Source: a virus. From it: 33,219 nucleotides of DNA. The notes under the pieces are model-generated. The model was given only the letters and a program-made list of their open reading frames with translations, did no database searches and was not told the DNA's origin. Positions within the stretch are counted from its first letter, which is position 1; every line of letters begins with the position of its first letter. Where the stretch lies: the IMG/VR virus record IMGVR_UViG_3300042458_003482, positions 1 through 33,219 of that record. The stretch is one strand, 5' to 3'. Shown piece after piece: positions 9,513 to 30,212 of the stretch. The position numbers and the translations under genes are program-made.

Positions 9513-9600
9513 GCTTTCTCCTTTTTTCAGTCTTTGATTGTACGGCTCGCTCGAGTGCGGGCTCGGCGGTTGCCGTTTCTAGTCGTTTTCGAGTTGCCAT
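9454..9600 (-). CDS. Uncertain basic small ORF, 48 aa
   Basis: An ATG overlapping the end of the glycosyltransferase gene opens a 48-codon frame (MATRKRLETATAEPALERAV...), very basic, ending in TGA inside the connector gene. It covers the only gap between the glycosyltransferase and the connector, where related phages often keep a small basic protein. The ribosome site is weak and 59 bases overlap the connector, so it may be only a chance frame. No family is recognised. Confidence 0.35.
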   Translation of the reverse strand: MATRKRLETATAEPALERAVQSKTEKRRKRGSNKRILHPVRPEDVPRD

Positions 9601-10268
9601 GAGATATGGTGCCTCTCGTCGAGCCAGTAACTCTTTTGGTGCGGCAGAATAGCCGCTGTGTTCACGTGGATTGGAAAGCCGAGCTGGCGAACCCTGCGGC
9701 TGAATAGCAAGTCTTCACTAATCCACTCACCGTTCAGCGGCCCGTCCCAGAACCAGCACCAGTCTGTGCCTTGGTGTGGGTCTGCGATTTCTCGCATCTT
9801 TTCCAAGACGCTTCTGTGGATTAGCACGCAGCCTGTTCCACAAGCATCTATCTCGAAAACGGCGTTTCGGTCGTACCTAAACAATGGCAAGAACCCCTCG
9901 GGGGCATCTTGAAAAATCGCGGGGACGGGCTTCGGATAGAGGCCTTCGTCCTTGAATGCTGCAAACACTAGGCCCGAAACTACGGGGCGTTCTAAGTGGT
10001 GCGCGGTGTTGATGAGCTGGTCAAACACTGAAACCGACAGCTGTTCATCAGAGTCTATTAATAGCAACCAGTCAGAGTCTGTGCTGTCCAAGAAAGTCTT
10101 GACTACTCTGTTGCGTAACTTGCTGAGAAGCCCGTTGCCTTTAACGCGGACAAAAGGGCCGAGTTTGTCGCTTCTGACTTGCGCAAGCTGGATAAGCTTA
10201 AAAGCGAAATCGCCATTTACGGTGCCTGGGTCACAGACGCCGATTGATACTTTGTGCCCTGATTTCAT
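9579..10268 (-). CDS. Family 2-like (GT-A) glycosyltransferase
   Basis: The 229-residue product has a GT-A layout. A Rossmann-like start (KVSIGVCDPG) is followed by an Asp-X-Asp metal and nucleotide-sugar site (LLLIDSDEQ, Asp72 and Asp74). Later come the acidic segment GEWISEDLLFSRRVRQLGFP and a histidine-containing end motif (ILPHQKSYW). Such enzymes transfer a sugar from a nucleotide sugar. Phages carry these among structural genes, and in mycobacteriophages such enzymes are known to decorate virion proteins. It sits between capsid and connector genes, so the neighbouring virion proteins are the likely substrates (inference). Its ribosome site, GGGGGAG, lies within a possible masking hairpin. 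Confidence 0.82.
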   Translation of the reverse strand: MKSGHKVSIGVCDPGTVNGDFAFKLIQLAQVRSDKLGPFVRVKGNGLLSKLRNRVVKTFLDSTDSDWLLLIDSDEQLSVSVFDQLINTAHHLERPVVSGLVFAAFKDEGLYPKPVPAIFQDAPEGFLPLFRYDRNAVFEIDACGTGCVLIHRSVLEKMREIADPHQGTDWCWFWDGPLNGEWISEDLLFSRRVRQLGFPIHVNTAAILPHQKSYWLDERHHISWQLEND

Positions 10269-12767: not shown

Positions 12768-14197
12768 TAATTGACCTCATAAACGGACGATGGATTTTCA
12801 GGGTCAATCGTTGAGACTTGCTGCAACTGACCTGTTGGAACTCCAGTATGACCCATCGGCGGCAAGCCAACAGCCTCGAGGACCGATTTCGGCTCGAATC
12901 CGACTTGAATCAAGTTGGTTGCGATTTCTGCCCTCAGCTTCATACCGACCTCTTTTGCGTCTGTCAAGTCGATATTTTGCAGTGGAACTCTGTATTGGTC
13001 GCCGTCTGCGACTGGTGCCATGTCTTCCGATGCATGTACGTCGTTGACTGACAAAAAGCCCTCGTTCAGGCCTTTTGTGTAAGCCTCGTAGCGCTCGAGT
13101 GTTGTACCACGAAGCAAGGCGTCAAGGTTGAACTTGATGAAGCCGTCAGGCTCTGGCAGTAGAGGTGAAAGTGCTTGTTCAATGCGCTCCAAAAGTGGAC
13201 GCAGTGAGTGCTGTACGAAAGACAAGTTCTGTGCTTCAACGGATGCAAACGACATTGCGCCTGCCACTGGGTGGCCGAGTAATGAAATCGGGACGCGGAA
13301 AAGGCGAGCGATTTCTTCAACCCCAAAACGACGAACTTCGAGAAGCTGTGCATCTGCGGCGTTGAGTGTTAGCGGCTTAAACGAAGCGCCACCAGTCAGA
13401 ACGCCGAGCTTGCCCGCACGGTACGGGCCAGTGTGTGAAAGATTCCAGTTGCGTGCGATGTCTGTGATTTGCTCTTCAGTAAGTTCGCCTGGAGATTCAA
13501 TGACGCCGCCTGGGTTGGCCGCGTTTCCAAAGTAAGAGGCTGCGTACACTTCGGCTGCCATCGCAGAACCCAAAGTGATGCGGGCTGCACCGATTGGACC
13601 GAGTCCAAGCAGCTGGCCTGGGAGTCTAAAGAGTGGAATATGAAGCATCTCGCGCTTCGTCAGAATCATTGTCTTTGTGGCGCCCTCTGCAGATTGCAGC
13701 CCGTCATACAGGCTGTTCTGACTGTTGGTGCCGATTGTGACTTCGTAGTAGATTTCGGCTTCTGCACTCGGACGGCGAATGCGCACGTTCTGTGGGTTGA
13801 TGCAGTAAAGCTCCATGACATCGCCCAGCTCGTCGCGGACGGTCAGAATGAATGCGTTGCCGTGCAGGTTGAGCGAGGTTACGATTTGCTCGTAGAACTC
13901 CAGGCGTGTGGTGTCTGGATTCGGGCGGCTTACCCACTCTGGCTGCGAGCCATAGACTGCGGCGTACGAAATGCGTTGACGTCCTCTGCGCACGTAGGCA
14001 GAGAGGGGCAAGGAACCAATTGTATCACCTAAAAGGCGCACACACGCGTAAACGGTGGACATGCGAATTGCCGTGTCGGCATTAACATCAACTCCAGCTG
14101 GAGATGAGTATGCAGGACGGCCTGGCACTAGCGGCTCAACGAATTGGTTCTGTGCTCGTTGTTCACTAGCCTTGCGCAGTCTGTTTGATAGACTCAT
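12767..14197 (-). CDS. Portal protein, HK97 family
   Basis: The 476-residue product has the typical portal signature. After a basic N-terminus (SLSNRLRKASEQRAQNQF) comes VDVNADTAIRMSTVYACVRL followed by IGSLPLSAYVRR. Later motifs include NPDTTRLEFYEQIVTSLNLH with GNAF, and PISLLGHPVAGAMSFASVEA. These mark dodecameric portals of the HK97 type, through which DNA enters and leaves. Its start overlaps the upstream glycosyltransferase stop by four bases. The order portal, protease, capsid is standard. Confidence 0.92.
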   Translation of the reverse strand: MSLSNRLRKASEQRAQNQFVEPLVPGRPAYSSPAGVDVNADTAIRMSTVYACVRLLGDTIGSLPLSAYVRRGRQRISYAAVYGSQPEWVSRPNPDTTRLEFYEQIVTSLNLHGNAFILTVRDELGDVMELYCINPQNVRIRRPSAEAEIYYEVTIGTNSQNSLYDGLQSAEGATKTMILTKREMLHIPLFRLPGQLLGLGPIGAARITLGSAMAAEVYAASYFGNAANPGGVIESPGELTEEQITDIARNWNLSHTGPYRAGKLGVLTGGASFKPLTLNAADAQLLEVRRFGVEEIARLFRVPISLLGHPVAGAMSFASVEAQNLSFVQHSLRPLLERIEQALSPLLPEPDGFIKFNLDALLRGTTLERYEAYTKGLNEGFLSVNDVHASEDMAPVADGDQYRVPLQNIDLTDAKEVGMKLRAEIATNLIQVGFEPKSVLEAVGLPPMGHTGVPTGQLQQVSTIDPENPSSVYEVN

Positions 14198-15270
14198 TTA
14201 GTGGCCTTTTCTGTGTCGAGTTGGTACCAGCCGTCGTCCCAAAGGGTCAACAACCGCTTGAAATATCGCTCGTATTGCACGCCGACCGCTTCGAGTGAAT
14301 ATTTCTCAATCGCTTGCTTTCGGATAGCTGCGCGGTCTAAAGACTTGACGTCCTCTGCCGCTTGCACGAACTCTGCCAGCGTGTGGCATCTGTAGCCAGT
14401 CACACCGTCGATGTTTGTCTCTGTAAAAGCGCCCCAGTCGGTGGTGATTGTTGGAGTGCCGCAGGTCTGAGCTTCGACCACGATATTGCCGAATGGCTCG
14501 ATGTAGGTAGTCGGCGCAAAAAGTGCAACAGCGCCGCCCATCAACTCTGCCCGCTGTTCTGGGCCTACGTTGCCAACAAACTCGCCGTACCCGCCATTTG
14601 GAGTGCCAGGACCTGCGATTATGAGCCTCTTGCCGAGGCGCTCGCAGACCTCTTGCGCGATGTTGTAGCCTTTTCGCTCAATAAGTCTGCCGATAAAAAA
14701 GTAGTAGTCTCCGTCGCCTTTGCCCTCGGGAAACATTTCAGGCTCGAGATACCCAGGGATAACTGCGTCAAAAAAACCGCCATCAACTGTGGTTGGGTTC
14801 TTATGTCCCGCATAGATGGAGTGCATCCAAGCATAAGACTCGAAGACCTTGAACTTGGCGAAGGTGCCACCATAGCCGATGCCGAACTCCACCGCAGTGT
14901 GTGCAGGAAAAGAGTCTGCGATTGGCTTGTGTGCGTAGCCGCCAATCAAACAAATGAAGTCTTTCGGCTCGATACGTTCGCGCATGCGGTTGATGACCGT
15001 CGCGTTAAAGATTTGCCAGTGCGGCAAGCTCGTATCGAAAGAGGCTGTCGTGTAGTGGGCGTCGCCGACTGCTGCAGCTCTTTGCTGTTCGCTTATGCAA
15101 ACCACGTGCTCTGTCACTGGTGCTTCGTTCTGCTCGCCTGCGTAGAGAACGACCTCATGCCCGAGGTCTGTCATCATGATACAGAAACGACGCACTTTCT
15201 CTGTGAAAGCGCAAGTTGCGAAGTCTTTAGTGACTTGTGTGTGTGGCAGTGCTACAACATGAAATCTCAT
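14194..15270 (-). CDS. Family 4 (GT-B) glycosyltransferase
   Basis: The start chosen at 15270 has a ribosome site (GGGGGA, three-base spacer); seven extra codons upstream lack one. The 358-residue product has a GT-B fold. Its C-terminal domain carries FIGRLIERKGYN (Arg195 and Lys200 in the donor phosphate site) and the EX7E pair Glu258 and Glu266 in YIEPFGNIVVEAQTCGTPT. Family 4 enzymes transfer sugars with retained configuration. Its place between the adhesin genes and the portal suggests that it modifies virion proteins, as does the family 2-like enzyme downstream. An origin from a host cell-wall gene is possible. Confidence 0.88.
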   Translation of the reverse strand: MRFHVVALPHTQVTKDFATCAFTEKVRRFCIMMTDLGHEVVLYAGEQNEAPVTEHVVCISEQQRAAAVGDAHYTTASFDTSLPHWQIFNATVINRMRERIEPKDFICLIGGYAHKPIADSFPAHTAVEFGIGYGGTFAKFKVFESYAWMHSIYAGHKNPTTVDGGFFDAVIPGYLEPEMFPEGKGDGDYYFFIGRLIERKGYNIAQEVCERLGKRLIIAGPGTPNGGYGEFVGNVGPEQRAELMGGAVALFAPTTYIEPFGNIVVEAQTCGTPTITTDWGAFTETNIDGVTGYRCHTLAEFVQAAEDVKSLDRAAIRKQAIEKYSLEAVGVQYERYFKRLLTLWDDGWYQLDTEKATK

Positions 15271-15290
15271 TGGTCCCCCGACCTTTGACA

Positions 15291-15521
15291 TTAAAGCGCT
15301 GCGATTTCTTCTGCTGATAGGCCGAGTGCTGCAAGTTTTGCTTCAGCCGAAGCTTTTGCTGCGGCCTTTGCTGCAGCTGCAGCTTCTTCTTCTGCACGGC
15401 GTGCTTCAAAATCTGCTTGTGTCGCCAAATACTGGGCGAGTTCAGATTCTGTCATCGGGCGTTCGGTTGAGATGCCAGTAGTGCAATCAATCTCAACGAC
15501 TGTTGGTGTGTCTGTTGTCAT
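15291..15521 (-). CDS. Small alanine-rich coiled-coil protein, 76 aa
   Basis: The ATG has a GGAG ribosome site. The product has a short polar start (MTTDTPTVVEIDCTTGISTE), then a long helix rich in Ala, Glu and Lys (about residues 25-65). It ends in the motif KLAALGLSAEEIAAL, which I recall at the end of short tail-fibre-associated proteins in many phages. It may help fold or attach the preceding adhesins, but no activity is known. It ends just before the glycosyltransferase gene. Confidence 0.7.
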   Translation of the reverse strand: MTTDTPTVVEIDCTTGISTERPMTESELAQYLATQADFEARRAEEEAAAAAKAAAKASAEAKLAALGLSAEEIAAL

Positions 15522-16591: not shown

Positions 16592-17869
16592 CTATGCTAT
16601 TCCGTACAACGCAAACGACGTTAGCGTTGAAAAGTTGACGTACGCGCCAATCTGGATTTGTGTGACTGGCGCCAACACTCCCTGCATGCCAGAGTTGTTT
16701 CCAATAACCCCGTAATTCTGCCCACCAGTTGCAGTTGCTGGGTCTGTCCAACCACCAACCGAACGAATGGTCTTGTTTTTGTTTGGGTTTGTGTACTCAA
16801 GGATATCAATGATGTAGGCACCGACAGTGAAAGCAGTTGACGAAGCGCCAGGCATGAACGGGTAACAACCGTTGGTGGCTGCTGCCACCACGAACCTCGC
16901 ATTCGCGCCGTCTCCTTCAATCCCATGCGTCGCATAAACGTTCCCAGTCTGATTGTTGTATGTAATCAGAATATTGTCGGTTGGATTGGACGAACTGCCA
17001 GACCTAGAAACGCCTCGAATCTGCAAATGTGTGTAGTTTTGCGGTATGTTCGTGAAGATGATGGTAGAGGCTGAACCAGTCCCGTTTAGTGTGGCGATGC
17101 TGGAGTACGCGTTGGCGCTGGTAACAGCGCTTGATGCCGCTGAAGCGCTTGTGCCTTTCGAGTTCACACTCGACACTTGATATGTGTACGAAGTGTCAAG
17201 CGTTGCTGGTGTAATGATAGGGCTGAGTGCGCCATAAGTTGTGGAGCCGCTGGGGTTTGAAGTGACCACGTAGCTGTCTGCTCCGTCATTTGCGGCTGGT
17301 GTGAAAGCGACGGAAGCAAAACCAGCCTGGTCAGTGACGGCACCGATTGTCGGCGCTAAAGGTGCGGCAACATCGAAATGGCTTGAAACGCCATAAAGAG
17401 TGAAAGTTGAGTGCTGCAAGAAGGTGCCACCGTTACCAGACAAAGTGAGTGAAGTAATCGGGCCAGTAAACGAAGTAGAAACGGACTGCAGGTTCATGTA
17501 GCCAGCGGTGCTATTCGCTTCAGAAGCGGAATCAATAATGAGTTGCTTGTAGTTGCCGCCCGTGTAATTCGGTATATAGACTTCGGTGACGCCGAAGGTG
17601 TTAGCGGTTTGTTCGCTGGGAGTGTAATAAAAAAACGAAGTGAAAGCGCCAGAACTCACAGAACCGTTGAAGACCATGTACGTGCCTGAGTTACTTACCG
17701 CCCCGTTCATGCCTATAATGCCGTAGGCGTTAGCGAGTGCGTTTGAGCCGCGCACAGACATAACCAGCTTTAAGTCGGTAAAGCCCTGCGGGATATTGTT
17801 GAATGCTATCGTAGCCGCGCCGCCAGCACCGACGGTCTGAGTGTAAATCGGTTGTACGAATACTGACAT
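16592..17869 (-). CDS. Adhesin-array protein 3: two beta domains flanking an FnIII domain (425 aa)
   Basis: The product contains two copies of the array domain: residues about 1-163 (IAFNNIPQGFTDLKLVMSVR to STFTLYGVSSH) and about 254-425 (IFTNIPQNYTHLQIRGVSRS to SFALYGIA). Between them residues about 168-251 form a fibronectin type III-like domain (APTIGAVTDQAGFASVAFTP through TYQVSSVNSKGTSA). FnIII domains in phages are common spacers or weak sugar binders. A fusion of two heads with a spacer is a useful hint that neighbouring single-domain proteins pair with each other. Confidence 0.78.
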   Translation of the reverse strand: MSVFVQPIYTQTVGAGGAATIAFNNIPQGFTDLKLVMSVRGSNALANAYGIIGMNGAVSNSGTYMVFNGSVSSGAFTSFFYYTPSEQTANTFGVTEVYIPNYTGGNYKQLIIDSASEANSTAGYMNLQSVSTSFTGPITSLTLSGNGGTFLQHSTFTLYGVSSHFDVAAPLAPTIGAVTDQAGFASVAFTPAANDGADSYVVTSNPSGSTTYGALSPIITPATLDTSYTYQVSSVNSKGTSASAASSAVTSANAYSSIATLNGTGSASTIIFTNIPQNYTHLQIRGVSRSGSSSNPTDNILITYNNQTGNVYATHGIEGDGANARFVVAAATNGCYPFMPGASSTAFTVGAYIIDILEYTNPNKNKTIRSVGGWTDPATATGGQNYGVIGNNSGMQGVLAPVTQIQIGAYVNFSTLTSFALYGIA

Positions 17870-19546: not shown

Positions 19547-21460
19547 CTAGAATGTCGTGACGGACGCGCCAGCGTCAATCGTGTAAGTCCATGAAGTGGT
19601 GCCCGATGTTTCTGCGTTGTAGATTGCGTCTCCCCAAAGGTTTGATGCACCGCCGTCGAGGTAGTCCACAACGGGGTTGTCGCCGCCTTGTGGTCCAGTC
19701 GCGCCTGTCGCGCCGACGGGTCCAGTTGAACCAGTTGCACCGACTGGGCCTGTTGCACCGCTTGCACCAATGGCGCCTTGTGGGCCTGTCGGTCCAGTTG
19801 CGCCTGTCGCGCCGTCTGTGCCGTTAGTGCCTGCGGGGCCTGTGGCGCCTGTTGCACCGACGGGGCCTGTAGCACCGACGGGGCCTGTAGCACCGACGTC
19901 ACCTGCGACACCTTGTGGACCAGTAGCGCCGACGGGGCCTGTGGCACCGATTGGGCCTGTGACTCCGACCAAACCTTGCTCGCCTTGAATGCCTTGTGGG
20001 CCTGTCGCACCAGTTGCACCTGCGGGGCCTGTTGGTCCTTCAGCACCTGTCGCACCGACTGGACCTGTTGGGCCAGTAGCACCGACCGCGCCTGCGGGGC
20101 CTGTAGCACCAGTTGCACCAGTCGCGCCATCAACTCCCGCAGGGCCTGTTGGACCTGTAGAACCGATTGGACCTGTCGCACCTGTTGGGCCTGGCACCGT
20201 CGAATCCGCACCTGTTGGGCCTGTAGCGCCGATTGGGCCTGTTGGACCAGTCGAGCCTGTTGGACCTTGTGAGCCTGTGGCGCCTGTTGGGCCTGTTGGG
20301 CCGACTGGTCCTTCGGGGGCTTGCAGTGAAGTGATGACAAACGAGTAGTGCTGTGAGCCCTCTGTGTAAAAGTTGATTGAACGTGCCGTGCCGTCGTCGT
20401 TGCGTGCGTAAAGCTCGACTATCATGCGGTCGGTTTCTGCTACTGCAGAGCTTGGCAGCACAATTTCGAGCTGTGTAAGCATCGGATTTGCGCCGTCGTA
20501 TGGAATTAGAGTTGCATCTGTGTCGCCGATAGTTGCAAGGACTGTGCCAGCGCTGTCTGCAAGTTTTAAGCGAGCGAACGCATAAACGTCAGAGCCGTTA
20601 GTGGGCTTGCTAAAGAAAAGATTAAAGCGCTGCACGCCAGCTGGAATCAGCGTGAAACCAAACTCCTCGCTGATGTACTGCTGCATAAGCTCTGTCGAGT
20701 TGCCAGCAACGGAGTTTGTGACAGTCGCCATCGCTGCGCCAGTTGGCTCTGTGCCAAGCTGCTTGTAACCAGTCAGCTCTGTGATGGACTCATTGAAATA
20801 GTAATAGCGGCCTGTGGTATAACCCTGTGGACCAGTCGCACCTGTCGCACCTGTGGCGCCTGTTGCACCAGTTGCGCCGACTGGGCCTGTTGGGCCTGTC
20901 GCGCCGATTGGGCCAGTCACACCTGTAGGGCCTGGAACAAACGAATCCGCACCTGTTGGGCCTGTAGCGCCGATTGGGCCTGTTGGACCAGTTGCACCCT
21001 CGATGCCTTGTGGACCTGTTGCACCAGTCGCGCCAACGGGACCTGTAGCGCCGATTGGGCCAGTCACACCGATTGGGCCAGTCACGCCGATTGGACCTGT
21101 AGGACCAACTTCGCCTTGTGGCCCAGTGGCACCGATTGGGCCAGTTACACCGACCTCGCCTTGAATGCCTTGAATGCCTTGTGGGCCTGTAGAGCCAGTC
21201 GGTCCCGTCGAGCCTGTTGGGCCTGTAGAGCCGATTGGGCCTGTGACACCTGTTGGACCGATAGCACCTGTCGCGCCTGTTGGGCCTGTTGACCCTGTTG
21301 GACCTGTCGCACCGACTGGACCTGTAACACCAGTTGCACCTTGCGGGCCTGTCGCACCTGTAGGGCCAGTTGGACCCGCAGGTCCTTGAGCACCAGGCGA
21401 CATGATTTCAACGGTGTTGACGTCCTTGATTACCGTGACTTCGTTGCAGTTATTAGACAC
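19547..21460 (-). CDS. Large collagen-like fibre protein (637 aa)
   Basis: Two long runs of Gly-X-Y repeats (residues about 23-213 and 384-593, mostly GPTG, GATG and GPIG) flank a beta-rich domain (214-383, beginning [20 protein letters not shown]). A short C-terminal domain (594-637) follows. The repeats should form triple helices about 50-60 nm long each (about 0.29 nm per residue), so this is a long trimeric fibre. The N-terminus has a cysteine and an acidic stretch ([18 protein letters not shown]) that may attach to the virion. Phage collagen-like proteins are usually tail or head fibres; here the association with glycosyltransferases suggests surface display. The Thr-rich repeats could be sugar acceptors (inference). 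Confidence 0.88.
19682..20311 (-). repeat. Collagen-like coding repeats, tract 2
   Basis: This is a tandem nine-base-periodic coding repeat for Gly-X-Y triplets (GGX CCN ACN-type codons), read on the minus strand. Degenerate units such as GGCCCGACG/GGACCTGTT recur many times. Such tracts can change length by slippage or recombination, so length polymorphism among related phages is expected. They also create large overlapping frames on the other strand and in other frames, which are not genes. Confidence 0.9.
20822..21394 (-). repeat. Collagen-like coding repeats, tract 1
   Basis: This is the second Gly-X-Y repeat block of the long fibre gene, separated from the other by the 170-residue beta domain. 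Units similar to those of tract 2 recur, including [11 protein letters not shown] here and [11 protein letters not shown] there, which shows that the blocks share an origin. A duplicated collagen segment around an inserted domain is the simplest explanation. Confidence 0.88.
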
Positions 21461-23934: not shown

Positions 23935-24097
23935 GTTTCTCCTAAAGTTGACTAATCATTGAATGGTCTGACCATTAAAATCCTGAACCCGTACGCGCCG
24001 CGTCCTTTGGGGCAGCGGGGTCTCTGTACGCGTGAGTTTTTGAAGTTCGAGGGGGGGTGGAAAAATGCCAGAGAGGGGGTTTGTTGTTGCTTTGTGC
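23935..24097. other. Candidate cos / packaging-initiation region (163 bases)
   Basis: No gene occupies the gap between the HNH endonuclease and small terminase genes, the usual place of cos. It contains a perfect 7-bp palindrome around one base (AATGGTC-T-GACCATT, 23962-23976), a direct repeat GTACGCG (23991-23997 and 24026-24032), and G-rich stretches near 24050-24080. The palindrome and direct repeats are candidate terminase-binding sites. The cut position itself cannot be seen. The octamer GTACGCGT at 24026 recurs at 27899 in the other large non-coding gap. Confidence 0.5.
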
Positions 24098-24660: not shown

Positions 24661-25248
24661 TCATGCCTCTGTTGGCGTGTCGAGCATCAGCCCCAAGCGA
24701 GGCCATTCGGTTTCCGTCCATGTGTGCCCTTTCCCATTTGCACATGTGCAATCTTCTGCAGCGCACCTGCAGCCGTGATTTCTGCAGAGCAGAAGCCCTT
24801 GGTCCAGCTTGATAACTAACGACTTTGTACAATACGGGCATCTTAGTCTTGCCGTCAAGGGCCTCTGCTCCAATCCTAGCAGGATTTTCACCTGCAAGTG
24901 ACGTTTCGATACCGAAAAGCTAATCTCTTCAATTAGCGGTGTGCGGTTGTCAGTCGGCCACTTCTCTATCGTGTCGGCCACCCAAAACAACGAGCGCTCG
25001 GCGTTCGTGTTTGGAGTTGCCCCCTGGTCTAGCCCTAGCCTAAGCTCGGCTTCCCAGAGAAGTGTATCAGTGCGAATGTCAAGAATCGCATCAAGCACAT
25101 CGACACGCAATGGGAGTCTAGGCCCTGGAACTGACCGAGTGGAGCGCTCGCCAGTACGGCCAGGCTCCAGCTCGGCACTTAGGTCCTTGTACCAAGTGGC
25201 CACGTCTCTAATCTCCTGCGCGGTTTCAATTAGCGGCTTATCAGACAC
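24661..25248 (-). CDS. Zinc-binding hypothetical protein, 195 aa
   Basis: The chosen start is a GTG at 25248 with a GGGAG ribosome site, overlapping the dUTPase stop by eight bases. A longer frame from a TTG at 25299 is less likely. The N-terminal two thirds are helical and unlike known families. The C-terminal part holds seven cysteines (Cys137, 140, 155, 160, 162, 167, 169) in CPYC, LLCRNHGCRC and EDCTC, so it probably binds one or two zinc ions. In actinophages, proteins with this plan lie near replication genes. Binding of nucleic acid is plausible but unproven. Confidence 0.65.
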   Translation of the reverse strand: MSDKPLIETAQEIRDVATWYKDLSAELEPGRTGERSTRSVPGPRLPLRVDVLDAILDIRTDTLLWEAELRLGLDQGATPNTNAERSLFWVADTIEKWPTDNRTPLIEEISFSVSKRHLQVKILLGLEQRPLTARLRCPYCTKSLVIKLDQGLLLCRNHGCRCAAEDCTCANGKGHTWTETEWPRLGLMLDTPTEA

Positions 25249-25672
25249 CAGAACTCCCAAAACCCGAAGCGCCACGGTCGGTTTTGGGGAGTTCGTCAAC
25301 CTGCTGCGCCTCTACATCTAGAGAGGCATTTGTCATGAGAATGTACTGAACCAAGCGCATGCCAGGCTCTATCTTGACTGGTTGGTCAGTCATGTTCCAC
25401 ACACCAGCAAAGAGCGGGCCAGTGTAGCCACAATCAATCACACCTTGTGCAACCATGAGACCGTGTTTGCGCAATGTGCTAGAGCGAGCTGTAAGCAAGC
25501 CCCACGTGCCCTCGGGCACCTTAATCGCAACACCAAGCGGAACGTCCACGAAAGTGTGTGGTTCAATCACCATCTCTGCATCACAGTACAGGTCGAAACC
25601 CGCATCATCTGAGTACGCTTTAGTCGGTGCCAAGCCAGTAGGTGTCAGTACGCGGTACAATAACGCTGCCAT
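25241..25672 (-). CDS. dut: dUTPase (trimeric type)
   Basis: The ATG at 25672 has a GGAG site. The 143-residue product contains all five trimeric dUTPase motifs in order: DDAGFDLYCD, ARSSTLRKHG, GVIDCGYTGPL, MRLVQYIL, and the glycine-rich C-terminal RGASGFGSSGV. It hydrolyses dUTP to dUMP, preventing uracil in DNA and supplying dUMP for thymidylate synthesis. It lies in the purZ operon and overlaps its neighbours on both sides. Because all motifs are intact, activity is expected. Confidence 0.93.
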   Translation of the reverse strand: MAALLYRVLTPTGLAPTKAYSDDAGFDLYCDAEMVIEPHTFVDVPLGVAIKVPEGTWGLLTARSSTLRKHGLMVAQGVIDCGYTGPLFAGVWNMTDQPVKIEPGMRLVQYILMTNASLDVEAQQVDELPKTDRGASGFGSSGV

Positions 25673-26048
25673 GCTTACTCCATTCTTCAATAGATTCATA
25701 TACTGGTATTTCAAGGGCTGCAAGTCCAACGCTGTTCATGCCGATATCGCCAATCACGATGACTGGGATTTCTTTATCAACAGCATATTGAACCTCAAGC
25801 ACAGTGCCCACAGTCAGGATACCACGAACGAGAACGGCCACAAGGACGTCTGCTTGCTCGAGTACACGCAGATTTCCCCAATGCACGAACTCGTCTGGCA
25901 CTAAATCGCTTGGTGCTTGCCACGCACCAGCTGGGTCATACACCCAAGAGCATTCTTGCTCTTTGAAATGTGCCTTGATTGCATCTTTGACTTTGTTCAC
26001 TTTCGCGCCCTCGTCGAAGTCAATCGGTGCAGCTAGATAGACAATCAC
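25620..26048 (-). CDS. Nucleoside 2-deoxyribosyltransferase-like protein, 142 aa
   Basis: The chosen start is a GTG at 26048 overlapping the previous TGA (GTGA); a GTG at 26066 is also possible. The product begins VYLAAPIDFDEG, and its centre LEQADVLVAVLVRGILTVGT followed by LEVQYAV matches nucleoside 2-deoxyribosyltransferase and dNMP N-glycosidase folds. Glu85 is the candidate catalytic residue. Such enzymes cleave or exchange the base of a deoxynucleoside or its monophosphate. In this operon it might remove unwanted deoxynucleotides, for example dAMP, and so favour the Z base. That role is inference. The gene overlaps the dUTPase start by 53 bases. Confidence 0.72.
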   Translation of the reverse strand: MIVYLAAPIDFDEGAKVNKVKDAIKAHFKEQECSWVYDPAGAWQAPSDLVPDEFVHWGNLRVLEQADVLVAVLVRGILTVGTVLEVQYAVDKEIPVIVIGDIGMNSVGLAALEIPVYESIEEWSKHGSVIVPRTDTYWLGTD

Positions 26049-26440
26049 TTGGCGAAGCCGCCCCACTCACCGTTGTGACGTGCATACTGCGCCATTTTGG
26101 TGTAGATAGCGATGTCATGCCATGTGTCGTCGCTTGGTTTGCGTCCGTCTGCGTAACCGCCAACAAGACGGGCCACCTTGCCGAGCACATAGAAAGCGAT
26201 GCCGAGTTCATCATTTGAGACGTCCTTTGGCTCGCCAATCATTTGACTCAGCGCAAAGCCAATGACTTTGAGGTCAGCACTACCATACTCCAAGGCCTTT
26301 GGAATGACAGAGTCTAACTCGTTGCGTGTCTCGTCCAGCCACCACTCAGCCAGCTGCTTCACACCGTCTGGTGCAGTGTCGCCTTCAAGTGGTAGCTTAC
26401 CAAGCGCGGCCGCCAGGTCTTCCCATTTCTCAAACGCCAT
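26045..26440 (-). CDS. All-helical protein of unknown family, candidate MazZ-like
   Basis: The ATG overlaps the purZ TAA (TAATG). The 131-residue product is predicted to be all alpha-helical. A conserved-looking C-terminal half (NDELGIAFYVLGKVARLV, YADGRKPSDDTWHDIAIYTK) carries acidic residues Glu78, Asp105 and Asp109, and an N-terminal helix carries Glu37 and Glu41. This recalls MazG/HisE-type NTP pyrophosphohydrolases but lacks their exact ExxE motif. I recall similar proteins in other actinophages without a known function. Its place directly after purZ makes a dGTP-to-dGMP role (MazZ) attractive but unproven. Confidence 0.6.
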   Translation of the reverse strand: MAFEKWEDLAAALGKLPLEGDTAPDGVKQLAEWWLDETRNELDSVIPKALEYGSADLKVIGFALSQMIGEPKDVSNDELGIAFYVLGKVARLVGGYADGRKPSDDTWHDIAIYTKMAQYARHNGEWGGFAK

Positions 26441-27474
26441 TATTTCACCCACGCCATTGTTGATGGTCCTGTGCCCACAAGCGCAACACGCGCATTGACT
26501 GCGTCCTCGATGTCCTTGATGTACTTGGCTTGGTCGTCAGACAAAATGTCAATCTGTGACTGGTCTTTCAGCTCTGGAAAGATGTAATCGAACATGGTGA
26601 GCGCGATTTTGACATTTGGTGAGCCGCCGTTTGCAATGACTGCCTCACGAACTAGGGCTGCATCAAAATGGCCGACACGGCGAATCTTTTGAGTCACTGT
26701 GGTGCGCTCTGCCTCTAGACCAAGCTCTTCCCAGTTGGTCTCGTTCTCGAGTGGACCAGAGTTGCCAGCCACACGGATTGGGTAAGTGCGTGCAGTTACC
26801 CAGACATCAAAGATGTCCACTGCTTTGTCCCAAGGTGAAACGCCAGCTTGTGACAAGAAGTCAATGGCACGGCAATCTTGGCTTGTGCAGAATGGGTACT
26901 GACCTGCGTGCAATCCGAGTCCATAGCCCTGTGTGCCTTCGATTAGCGCTGTGCCACCAAGGCGCAAGTGCTCGCGAATAACTTTTGAAGTATCTACTCC
27001 GCCGCCGAATAGAGTCGCCTTGCGCATGATGCGGTCCGCACGTGCAGCGCCGATTCCCTTGCTGGTCGAGCCGATTCTGGCTTGGATATTGTCTGCGGTT
27101 TCGATATCGTGGTGCATAGGCTCCAAGATGGTCGCCTGGTCGTCCACGAGGATGCGTGAGCTGGCTTCGTAGCCTGCCTTGTCTAGGTCGTGCAGCTCGC
27201 GATTGAAGACTTCCATGTCAATCTCTGACCCTGCCGCGATGATGAGGTCAGACTCTGGGGCTGTCACTGCATTCACTGGAATTGAGCGCAAACGCCAAGC
27301 GTATGACTCCTCTCCGTCTGGCCCCTTGCCATAGACTGTGTGCCCAGCGTTTGGCCCTGCAACTCGAATGCCCATGAATGGTGCGTCTGATGTCGCGGAT
27401 AGGTAGCCTGCTACTGCTCCCTTGCCTTCGCTGCCGTACTGACCGCCAACAACGGCGATTAAACGTCCTGCCAT
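26440..27474 (-). CDS. purZ: Aminoadenylosuccinate synthetase (PurZ), Z-DNA synthesis
   Basis: The 344-residue product is an adenylosuccinate synthetase homologue. The P-loop-like start reads GGQYGSEGKG: Ser15 takes the place of the catalytic Asp in the WGDEGKG of PurA, a known mark of PurZ. His45 (GPNAGHTVY) is kept, as are the IMP/dGMP-site motif STSKGIGAARADR and EGTQGYG. The GTP-specificity motif TKLD of PurA has become TMFD (293-296), consistent with PurZ enzymes using (d)ATP. PurZ joins aspartate to dGMP; host PurB and kinases then give dZTP (2-aminoadenine). The shorter length compared with PurA (about 430) also fits. A ribosome site GGGGGA precedes the ATG. Confidence 0.88.
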   Translation of the reverse strand: MAGRLIAVVGGQYGSEGKGAVAGYLSATSDAPFMGIRVAGPNAGHTVYGKGPDGEESYAWRLRSIPVNAVTAPESDLIIAAGSEIDMEVFNRELHDLDKAGYEASSRILVDDQATILEPMHHDIETADNIQARIGSTSKGIGAARADRIMRKATLFGGGVDTSKVIREHLRLGGTALIEGTQGYGLGLHAGQYPFCTSQDCRAIDFLSQAGVSPWDKAVDIFDVWVTARTYPIRVAGNSGPLENETNWEELGLEAERTTVTQKIRRVGHFDAALVREAVIANGGSPNVKIALTMFDYIFPELKDQSQIDILSDDQAKYIKDIEDAVNARVALVGTGPSTMAWVK

Positions 27475-27486
27475 TTGATTCCCCCT

Positions 27487-27816
27487 TTAGAAGTTCGGAG
27501 TGTCACTCGACACTGCCGTTTTTTCGTTCCAGTAGTCGGGCTCTTTCCGACTGTACTGGGGTGAGCGGCACTGGTGTTTAGCCAGTACGAACTCGTATTG
27601 CTTTGCGATGTTGCGAATCCAACGCCGCTCTAGGTAGAAGCCTGGCCGCCACCTAGAAACTCCATATGTCTGTCGCTTATTGAATAGGCACTGTGCCTCA
27701 GTCAACAAGTCCACAGGAATCGGGTCACACTCGAAGCGAAACCCGCACCACTGCGCTTTCCAAATAAAGCCAAAACAGGACAAACACACCCCACCTTGAG
27801 CTTTTTTATCCTGCAT
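27487..27816 (-). CDS. Cysteine-containing hypothetical protein, 109 aa
   Basis: The product has a first pair Cys11-x-x-Cys14 in GGVCLSCFGF. Further cysteines (24, 30, 43) and a late HQC follow, as well as basic and aromatic residues (VSRWRPGFYLERRWI). The arrangement suggests a zinc-stabilised small protein that I recall near replication genes in actinophages, but no function is known. It is the first gene after the repeat-rich gap and probably heads the purZ operon. The ribosome site is an AGG eight bases before the ATG. Confidence 0.6.
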   Translation of the reverse strand: MQDKKAQGGVCLSCFGFIWKAQWCGFRFECDPIPVDLLTEAQCLFNKRQTYGVSRWRPGFYLERRWIRNIAKQYEFVLAKHQCRSPQYSRKEPDYWNEKTAVSSDTPNF

Positions 27817-27966: not shown

Positions 27967-28134
27967 TCACCCCTGGTGCCCCCAGCCAGTGCCCTTAAAG
28001 ACGACCCCTGGAGAGGACCAAACTCTATCAGCAAGCTGGCCACAACACAAGGGCGCCACGGTCTCGCCATGCACTGAACCGTCCACCGTCAGGGACATGC
28101 TGCATATCCCGCAGCGAAACTCATAAATCGGCAT
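27967..28134 (-). CDS. FmdB-type zinc-ribbon protein, 55 aa
   Basis: The ATG overlaps the PrimPol TAA (TAATG). The product begins MPIYEFRCGICSMS, the hallmark start of FmdB-family zinc ribbons. It continues with a second cysteine pair in APLCCGQ and the ending RVWSSPGVVFKGTGWGHQG, also typical of that family. Four cysteines (Cys8, Cys11, Cys30, Cys31) probably bind zinc. FmdB-like proteins are thought to act as small regulators, but their function is not settled. The link with a primase-polymerase is worth noting. Confidence 0.85.
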   Translation of the reverse strand: MPIYEFRCGICSMSLTVDGSVHGETVAPLCCGQLADRVWSSPGVVFKGTGWGHQG

Positions 28135-30212
28135 TAAACAATCCCCTCGAATGGTAGCGGTGCTCCAAGCACATACGGCTTGCAGTGGCTGTAATAGCGC
28201 CCTTGGCCAGATGCTCGGACTGACAAGTGCCCAGTGTTCTCCAGCTGTGAAATCGCCTTCTTGATTTGGTCGGTTCCACCCTCGATTGCCTGGACGATTT
28301 GATTGGTGGACAGCTCTGCCCCGTGCTTCTCCATGAACTCCGACAGCTTTCGCATCAGGTATTCATGAGGTGAGAAGCCAGTCTGTCCACCAACGATTGA
28401 GATTTCGATACTGTTATCGGGCTTGGAAATCAAGTCCACAGTACCGACAAAGGACGCCTCTTGTGAGATTCCGCGCACGAAACCTGGGCGGTCCTTGGTG
28501 ATTTTGAGATTCAGCTTGCCATTAGAACCACGGCCGAAAGGCATGGAAACGTCCACAGAAATGGCGACGCCGTCAATGTCTGCACGCTTTGCTTGTGCAC
28601 CGATGGCGTAATTGCCGCGGTTGTCCTTGCTCTTGGTGACGTGGTCAATAGTCAAGACCGCAGCCCCCCACAAACGGAGCGGGCGCAGCACAACCTGCGA
28701 GAATTGAGTCGCGTCTTTGTTCTTTTCAAGGTCCAAGCCCAGCAGGTTCATGGCGGCGTTGACACCGTCCATTACAATCAAGTCGGGTGTGAAGTCGCGA
28801 ATCGAGCCCAAGAGAGCTTGCTGTGCGATTTCGTTGTAGCCCCCATCTGGGTTGGCGTACTTGAAGCGGGCAAAATGCTCACGCATGACGCCGAGCGCCT
28901 TCAGACGGCCGCGGATACCACGCTTGGAATCCTCGAAGTCAATGTAAAAGACCTTGTTGCCCTGCACCAGTTGCTGGCGCACAGCTTCCAGCGCCACCCA
29001 AGTCTTTCCAGATTCTGATTCACCAAATATGGCGTTAATCTTTCCCGCATAGAGCAAGCACTGACCGTCGGTGCGGTAAAGCACTGTGGGTCCAGGTTCT
29101 GTCTCGTCCTCATCGAACTCGACCAACCTTGGAAGCCAGCTGGTGTCGGGTTCTGGCGCGGGCAGTTCTGCGATGTCTGGGTCTGGCTCTGGCGTAGGCT
29201 CAGACTCCAGCCACGCGCTGACATCAATCGGCTGCAGGTGACTGCCACCGCCTGTGCCAAATCCCTTGGCTTTCAGCGCTGCCGCAGCCTTTGAGAAGTC
29301 GCCACTGTGCTCGACTAGGGTGTACACCGCGAACTTGGAGTAGGCACGCTCTGCGTCAAAGATGGTGCTGGTGCTGAAGCAGTAGAAAAAGTCTGTGCCG
29401 TCGAAGCCCGTGGTGGCAGAGATGCCCTCGGACTTGCCTGGACGGCGCCACGCGGTTGTGCCGCGGTTTGTGAAGACCTTTGACCACCCCAAGGGCAACA
29501 GAATCTCGTCCCAGCTCGTCTTTGCGTTATAGTCGTCGCCTGGAAGTTCGCGGTTCTCTTCCCGAGTACCCACGGAGACCTCGGAAGCCACCACGGAAGC
29601 CTTTGGAAGTTGGTCAAAATATTTGAATAAAGAGTGAATCGTCTCGCGCTCGTCGAGGCTCAGGACGGGTATTGTCTCAATCGAGCCCGAAATAAGTTGC
29701 CAGACCCCACCCGATGGGTGGCAGGTGCCGCCTGTTGGTGCGACCACCACGAAGCCACCCTCGCCGCGAGTCTCGGCAAGCACATCTACGCCATCATTTG
29801 CACCTGGCCTGCGAGCCAGCTTTGTGTTGCCTGGGACTTCACCGTCTAAGCGGTAGAGCCAGTGCAAACCACCCGAAGGTGTCATTTCGCAATAGCCATC
29901 GTTAAGTCTTGACCAAAGAGCATCGATGCCCATTTCGTGGGCCATCTCTTTGATTTGAGTGTGCATTCCGTCTGCCACGGCGCGACCTTCGAGTTCCATC
30001 ATCTCGAGCGAGCCCGATATCTTGCCCGTGATTAGTCCGACGCCTTGTGCGTCCTTGAACCAGGCTTGCAGCTCATCGGTGGTCGGCATCTTGCTCTGGT
30101 ACTCTTTCCAGGAGCCAATGCCTGGACGCTTGGAGCCGTCGGCCATAACTGGCACAACCGAGCACCCAGCCGCTGCGAATCTTAAAGCGGCAGTGAAGAC
30201 ATCTAGTGACAC
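28134..30212 (-). CDS. PrimPol-helicase fusion, replication protein
   Basis: The 692-residue product starts with a bifunctional primase/polymerase domain (about 1-200). Motif I reads LEMMELEGRA, with two acidic residues (Glu73 and Glu75) where Asp is usual. Motif II is SGGLHWLYRL, and motif III-like DVLAETRGEGGFVVVAPTGG follows. Residues about 385-580 are a RecA/RepA-type helicase with Walker A GESESGKTW and Walker B LIVMDG. The end (about 632-680) is a winged helix. It is the only polymerase in the window, so it probably both primes and copies the phage DNA, as in cyanophage S-2L, whose PrimPol accepts both A and Z. The GTG start has a GGGGGA site. Confidence 0.88.
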   Translation of the reverse strand: MSLDVFTAALRFAAAGCSVVPVMADGSKRPGIGSWKEYQSKMPTTDELQAWFKDAQGVGLITGKISGSLEMMELEGRAVADGMHTQIKEMAHEMGIDALWSRLNDGYCEMTPSGGLHWLYRLDGEVPGNTKLARRPGANDGVDVLAETRGEGGFVVVAPTGGTCHPSGGVWQLISGSIETIPVLSLDERETIHSLFKYFDQLPKASVVASEVSVGTREENRELPGDDYNAKTSWDEILLPLGWSKVFTNRGTTAWRRPGKSEGISATTGFDGTDFFYCFSTSTIFDAERAYSKFAVYTLVEHSGDFSKAAAALKAKGFGTGGGSHLQPIDVSAWLESEPTPEPDPDIAELPAPEPDTSWLPRLVEFDEDETEPGPTVLYRTDGQCLLYAGKINAIFGESESGKTWVALEAVRQQLVQGNKVFYIDFEDSKRGIRGRLKALGVMREHFARFKYANPDGGYNEIAQQALLGSIRDFTPDLIVMDGVNAAMNLLGLDLEKNKDATQFSQVVLRPLRLWGAAVLTIDHVTKSKDNRGNYAIGAQAKRADIDGVAISVDVSMPFGRGSNGKLNLKITKDRPGFVRGISQEASFVGTVDLISKPDNSIEISIVGGQTGFSPHEYLMRKLSEFMEKHGAELSTNQIVQAIEGGTDQIKKAISQLENTGHLSVRASGQGRYYSHCKPYVLGAPLPFEGIV

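Follow-up and report, generated by a model that had tools for sequence, protein, structure and literature searches.

The 33,219-base virus record IMGVR_UViG_3300042458_003482 of IMG/VR, referred to here in its whole length as the window, comes from an uncultured phage and carries what is very likely, judging by sequence, a 2-aminoadenine (Z) operon of the PurZ0 type, in which DutZ and DmtZ would clear the nucleotide pool and DatZ would not be needed. The four genes of the operon, namely purZ, h135, the NDT-like gene dmtZ and the dUTPase-like gene dutZ, lie on the minus strand and overlap one another. The original prediction had described a purZ operon that lacks DatZ and MazZ and includes an NDT-like gene; its description and coordinates were right, and Pfam and profile searches run with positive controls, including matches to PF05014 and NF038379, bear it out.

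The same prediction had regarded the removal of adenine by base cleavage as a new way to exclude it from DNA, a claim overtaken by a paper of February 2026 (Poubanne et al. 2026, PMC12884076), which was the sole account of the DmtZ/DutZ route found in a literature search. There, DutZ of the PurZ0 phages Ghobes and Wayne converts dATP and dGTP to dAMP and dGMP, and DmtZ of the same phages, an NDT-family protein, releases adenine from dAMP and moves deoxyribose 5-phosphate to Z; dutZ occurs in 98 of 98 PurZ0 genomes and dmtZ in 85 (PMC12884076). The route itself is thus already known, and what is new is the h135 gene together with a lineage that lacks polymerase I.

PurZ type

The purZ gene (26440..27474, minus strand) encodes a predicted 2-amino-adenylosuccinate synthetase of 344 amino acids, which scored 344.6 bits against the NCBIfam model NF038379 (amino_Aden_PurZ; cut-off 300). 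Its translation contains the PurZ hallmark GSEGKG, in which Ser replaces the catalytic Asp of PurA. The best match in the PDB was 7VF6 (1.9e-87), the PurZ0 of Archimedes (PMC12884076), followed by PurA chains at 7e-44 (5k7x, the PurA of Pyrococcus; PMC12884076) and then by the PurZ proteins of phiVC8 (5.5e-28) and S-2L (2.4e-27); this ranking is the pattern expected of a PurZ0. A PurZ profile made from named phages, with the window left out, gave 416.3 bits, and in a tree of 47 PurZ proteins the window sequence fell among 45 PurZ0 rows, set apart from the two others by a branch with a value of 100. On the grounds of the family model, the structure ranking and the tree, we assign the window PurZ to the PurZ0 type. 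In one contig, a second, inverted PurZ match lies next to a truncated one (L089:1-243 and 1897-2904), which is probably an assembly artefact.

Predicted DutZ and DmtZ

The dutZ gene (25241..25729, minus strand) encodes a predicted dATP/dGTP diphosphatase of the dUTPase fold, which matched PF00692 at 90.2 bits and a DutZ profile built without the window at 182.9 bits. The best 60 of 1,618 matching phage dUTPase records all came from PurZ0 genera, as assigned by genus rather than by PurZ record by record. Since DutZ makes monophosphates from dATP and dGTP in the published pathway, the apparent dUTPase would be part of the mechanism and a supplier of dGMP as well.

The dmtZ frame (25620..26066, minus strand) encodes 148 amino acids, or 142 if read from an inner GTG at 26048; the 142-residue protein with Glu85 of the original prediction is this inner reading, and Glu85 is Glu91 of the longer frame, at the nucleophile position of the DmtZ alignment. 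The product, a predicted NDT-family dAMP hydrolase or deoxyribose-5-phosphate transferase, matched PF05014 at 34 bits (cut-off 28.8), and a DmtZ profile built without the window recognized it at 71.0 bits (E 7.6e-20). The Ghobes residues that have been mutated are Tyr6, Asp12, Pro57, Asn77 and Glu103 (PMC12884076); all five are kept in the window protein as Y10, D16, P45, N65 and E91, and they are invariant in 16 of 16 aligned proteins. The family match, the profile and these residues identify the NDT-like protein as a predicted DmtZ.

Absence of DatZ and MazZ

The DatZ family PF12917 was matched by none of 51 PurZ0 records (12 named phages, 8 records of the window group and 31 further contigs), and both DatZ controls were matched. 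PF01966 (HD), which matches two of three DatZ controls, found nothing in six window-group records or in two Gordonia phages. A profile of six DatZ proteins likewise gave no match at E<=10 in the window, in its relatives G001-G005 or in Archimedes, and it matched all five DatZ-carrying loci searched; in the same set of records and at the same threshold, MazZ-1 and MazZ-2 profiles gave no match and recovered their own members. PF04447, tried as a test for MazZ, had no match. A hidden DatZ in the window or its relatives was ruled out by PF12917, PF01966 and the DatZ profile. The operon and its complete relatives thus have neither DatZ nor MazZ.

Completeness of the relatives was taken from their ends: G001 (34,098 bases) and G002 (35,464 bases) both start and stop at window position 24003-24020, and G003 (34,080 bases) has a 99-base terminal repeat. 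The original prediction had held that a DatZ gene elsewhere in the genome would speak against it; by sequence, none was present in the window or in these three relatives.

Conservation of the gene cassette

Among 36 viral contigs reached with the window PurZ, h135 was present in all and the NDT and dUTPase genes followed in the same order in 35, the one exception being a contig that ends within the h135 gene. Since the order is kept in 35 of 36 and the last is truncated, chance does not account for the cassette. The original prediction had asked whether the NDT-dUTPase pair travels with purZ, which these 35 contigs bear out, together with 33 further loci found with the h135 profile, in which h135 follows PurZ in 33/33, DutZ is present in 33/33 and DmtZ in 25/33; it is to be noted that the 33 include three copies of Ghobes, Goodman and Hiyaa and one repeat of an earlier contig. 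In the 36 contigs, no other pathway gene of the cassette varied as much as dmtZ. Two relatives (L005 and L006) are 96% identical to the window in PurZ and 99% in h135, with just 69-72% identity in DmtZ, and in two others (L011 and L012) the values are 92% for PurZ and 86% for DmtZ; from the sequences, this pattern looks like allele exchange.

Comparison with cultured phages places the window nearest to the Gordonia phage Ghobes (PMC12884076), which shares the order purZ0, h135-type gene, dmtZ, dutZ (with small genes interspersed in Ghobes), as well as separate dmtZ and dutZ genes, the absence of DatZ and the DmtZ catalytic residues; it differs in having DNA polymerase I and in its DmtZ, as weighed below. 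The Arthrobacter phages Wayne and HeadNerd have the PurZ0, DmtZ and DutZ functions that are predicted for the window, but their type has dmtZ and dutZ fused and a DUF5664 protein in the place of h135, as seen in HeadNerd, the one Arthrobacter phage opened.

Polymerase content of the lineage

In PMC12884076, polymerase I matched PurZ0 perfectly. PF00476 (polymerase I; DpoZ-1 is typical of PurZ0 phages) was indeed found in all 12 named PurZ0 phages, and in none of the 8 records of the window group, of which three are complete; the window lineage therefore departs from the perfect match. Sixteen of 31 further contigs had polymerase I; those without it were close kin of the window, including short fragments, together with six contigs in which DmtZ and DutZ are fused (L101, L105, L106, L108, L110 and L111). 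These six are 37-45 kb long and branch basally in the PurZ0 tree. PolB and PolC families were matched in 0 of 16 records searched, and PrimPol in 14 of the 16. All open reading frames of at least 350 amino acids in G001 were assigned, through window counterparts and family matches, to virion, terminase, glycosyltransferase, PurB or PrimPol genes, one of 383 amino acids by a weak tail-protein match alone (0.0046). PrimPol is thus the only DNA polymerase found in the window lineage; its gene (28134..30212, minus strand) includes an AAA ATPase and matched PF09250 at 43.2 bits and PF13481 at 43.3 bits. The main text of PMC12884076 does not mention PrimPol.

A precedent is offered by cyanophage S-2L, in whose Z-cluster (PurZ, MazZ, DatZ, PrimPol) PrimPol is likewise the only polymerase found. 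As described in PMC8065100, the S-2L PrimPol is the sole polymerase and incorporates A and Z alike, while DatZ clears dATP. Unlike the window, S-2L has a PurZ that is not PurZ0, has DatZ and MazZ-1, and has a PrimPol that PF09250 does not match. With PrimPol as the only polymerase, adenine exclusion is probably achieved in the pool in S-2L and in the window lineage alike, and since the latter is without DatZ, DutZ and DmtZ are the likely substitutes.

The h135 family

The gene between purZ and dmtZ (26045..26452, minus strand) encodes a helical protein of 135 amino acids, here called h135, which belongs to a PurZ0-linked family and is a possible nucleotide phosphohydrolase resembling DUF6378. 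The original prediction had called it a helical protein of unknown family. It had no Pfam match, a search of 12 members at E 10 found none to DUF6378 (PF19905), and predicted models were four-helix bundles, with a mean pLDDT (model confidence score) of 78.6 for the window protein and 91.7 for a homologue (L104). In named phages, h135 was found in 31 records (Microbacterium 18, Gordonia 6, Streptomyces 5, Curtobacterium 1 and Micrococcus 1), and in those five genera the numbers equal those of PurZ. No Arthrobacter record had it, although 105 have PurZ; the Arthrobacter phages are thus the one named PurZ0 group, of those examined, that lacks h135. It stood directly after purZ in all 11 phages opened of the 31. 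The tree has h135 in 44 of its 45 PurZ0 rows, a biased count, most rows having been found through h135; the counts that started from PurZ are fair. The main text of PMC12884076 does not mention the h135 gene, and the terms ‘hypothetical’, ‘unknown function’ and ‘PurB’ occur nowhere in it.

Profile comparison by hhalign related h135 to a set of 57 DUF6378-type sequences at 67%, and at 77% with another h135 alignment; among the controls, eight other families reached no more than 1.7%, ten column shuffles 0.8% and the reversed profile 3.1%. The link was weaker (16%) with a smaller alignment of 15 sequences. The two families share, in the same order, the signatures [KR]x3YG, Kx2R and Dx3Dx3Y, of which the last is in part a product of selection, the 57 sequences having been collected by their D-S-W-x-D-I-A-G-Y end, and YG and K-x2-R are not. 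In BFVD, rows 1-7 for the window model were its own family, and 13 of rows 8-50 were DUF6378 or nucleotide-modification-associated domains (E>=0.15); for the L104 model, 9 of rows 8-50 were DUF6378 (E>=0.15). Thus, h135 resembles this phage helical domain in its ordered signature and fold neighbours, and is unlike it in the Pfam result given above. We know of no proven function for DUF6378.

Solved structures were less informative. Foldseek gave no PDB match at E<=0.001, and the matches listed did not include the MazZ structure of S-2L; the structural matches were weak and stood amid unrelated helical rows, such as iMazG 2q73 (Z 3.9 with 66 aligned residues at 3.3 A, and Z 5.0 with 55 at 3.9 A) and HisE 1y6x (Z 4.1 with 75 at 4.2 A). 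Sequence searches of solved structures returned two designed proteins only for h135, and one unrelated chain for the DUF6378 set. Several identities were tried and rejected: MazZ-1 and MazZ-2 by profile comparison (0.3% and 0.05%), DUF5664 by PF18909, which matched HeadNerd and SH-Ab and none of 8 window-group records, and the ‘phosphofructokinase’ phrog_474 by a match that was weak (E 0.002) and confined to 1 of 12 members.

Proposed mechanism and alternatives

In the proposed pathway, DutZ would first hydrolyse dATP and dGTP to their monophosphates. DmtZ would then remove dAMP, either by cleaving the glycosidic bond and releasing adenine or by passing the deoxyribose phosphate to a Z base to give dZMP. 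PurZ0 would condense dGMP with aspartate, a lyase (the phage PurB in relatives, or that of the host) would yield dZMP, and host kinases would raise dZMP to dZTP. The window enzymes would thus act as those of Ghobes and Wayne do, and the phage DNA would hold Z. Adenine would most likely be kept out mainly by clearing of the pool, in the way that DatZ serves S-2L, whose PrimPol is non-selective. The suggestion that adenine is excluded by base cleavage therefore stands in part: the NDT-like protein is a predicted DmtZ, whose published relatives cleave dAMP, but cleavage would not act alone, since DutZ comes first. h135 probably adds a further nucleotide-processing step.

Several points weigh against this scheme. 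The window DmtZ is just 26% identical to that of Ghobes, and Trp124, the ‘lid’ proposed there, corresponds to Val113; PurB was found in relatives only, the purB gene of G001 lying in a stretch that the window lacks (L066:6512-7843, Lyase_1, 112.1 bits), and the window is about 3 kb short of G001. The window PrimPol differs from those of PurZ0 phages in culture, the best 30 of 45 matching records including none of the 12 phages opened, and that pool clearing is the main source of selectivity is something we infer by analogy. The PrimPol itself could prefer Z, which leads to an alternative that we consider unlikely: the polymerase step would reject adenine, the window PrimPol or a recruited host polymerase preferring dZTP, and DutZ and DmtZ would serve to supply dGMP and salvage Z bases. 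In its favour, this PrimPol comes from a different branch than those of Ghobes-like phages, its first acidic motif is Glu-x-Glu (shared by aligned relatives) and that of the Archimedes PrimPol is Asp-x-Asp, and transfer of deoxyribose phosphate to Z is possible for DmtZ (PMC12884076). Nonetheless, the S-2L PrimPol takes both A and Z and depends on DatZ (PMC8065100), and DutZ is retained in every PurZ0 genome surveyed in PMC12884076. Less probable still is that dAMP removal is not the main activity of the NDT-like protein, which might, for instance, be confined to transfer or salvage or might cleave a different deoxynucleotide. The low identity to Ghobes DmtZ, the Trp to Val change and the variability of dmtZ would fit, but all 16 aligned proteins keep the Tyr/Asn/Glu set and Asp12, the residue without which the Ghobes enzyme no longer hydrolysed dAMP, and the gene keeps a fixed order beside dutZ. 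The lid residue comes from a Ghobes docking model and was not mutated; we did not count it as defining DmtZ, and in the 16 PurZ0-linked NDT proteins that position is Trp in 10 and Val or Ile in 6.

The idea that a DatZ gene lies outside the sequenced part merits almost no credence: the window is a fragment, but the complete relatives G001-G003, 34-35.5 kb in size, had no DatZ by two Pfam families or the DatZ profile. The role of h135 is the closest call. A nucleotide phosphohydrolase is the likeliest reading of its sequence and models, given the profile and fold similarity to DUF6378, the invariant acidic and basic residues, and the fact that DUF5664, a dATP/dGTP pyrophosphohydrolase in Wayne, occupies the same slot in HeadNerd. 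A serious competitor, with a chance somewhat short of even, is that the family is a partner or regulator of PurZ0 and not an enzyme; it draws on the absence of a profile link to MazZ-1 and MazZ-2, on the weak and mixed PDB matches, and on the invariant acidic residues being outside the E-x2-E arrangement, which we take to be the MazG pattern. Returning to pool clearing by DutZ and DmtZ, a bolder version may be offered tentatively: that the lineage follows a third route to Z-DNA, in which a non-selective PrimPol is the sole polymerase, DatZ is absent and DutZ and DmtZ alone exclude adenine, h135 being an old nucleotide-processing enzyme of the PurZ0 line that was displaced by DUF5664 in Arthrobacter phages.

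Other features of the window

The minus-strand order is PrimPol, a zinc-ribbon gene, a 109-amino acid gene, PurZ, h135, the NDT-like gene, the dUTPase gene, a 212-amino acid gene, a small gene, HNH and the terminase genes. The 109-amino acid gene (27487..27816, minus strand), 12 bases upstream of purZ, had a weak match to phrog_10480 (0.00055) and is conserved in 33/33 related contigs that cover its stretch. The 212-amino acid gene (24661..25299, minus strand) overlaps dutZ and matched phrog_1467, of unknown function, at 2.2e-10; a role for it in the Z pathway is not supported. The genome end (cos, 24003..24020) lies between the HNH and terminase genes, as judged from the start and end of two related contigs. 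Over its N-terminal half, the window PrimPol shares 44-48% identity with PrimPols from phages of Arthrobacter globiformis, among the matches listed. The purB gene also occurs in Ghobes, Archimedes, Keanu, Hiyaa and Galactica. Glycosyltransferase-like genes lie among the virion genes (14194-15291 and 9579-10268), a collagen-like repetitive tail fibre gene (19547-21460) lies between the terminase and portal genes, and a 425-amino acid gene (16592-17869) had no PHROG match at E 0.001.

Significance

Overall, these results add an uncultured lineage to the range of the DmtZ/DutZ route and separate PurZ0 from polymerase I. They also draw attention to one uncharacterised gene, h135, beside purZ. The lineage offers a clean test case for whether clearing of the pool by base cleavage alone is enough to keep a canonical base out of a genome.

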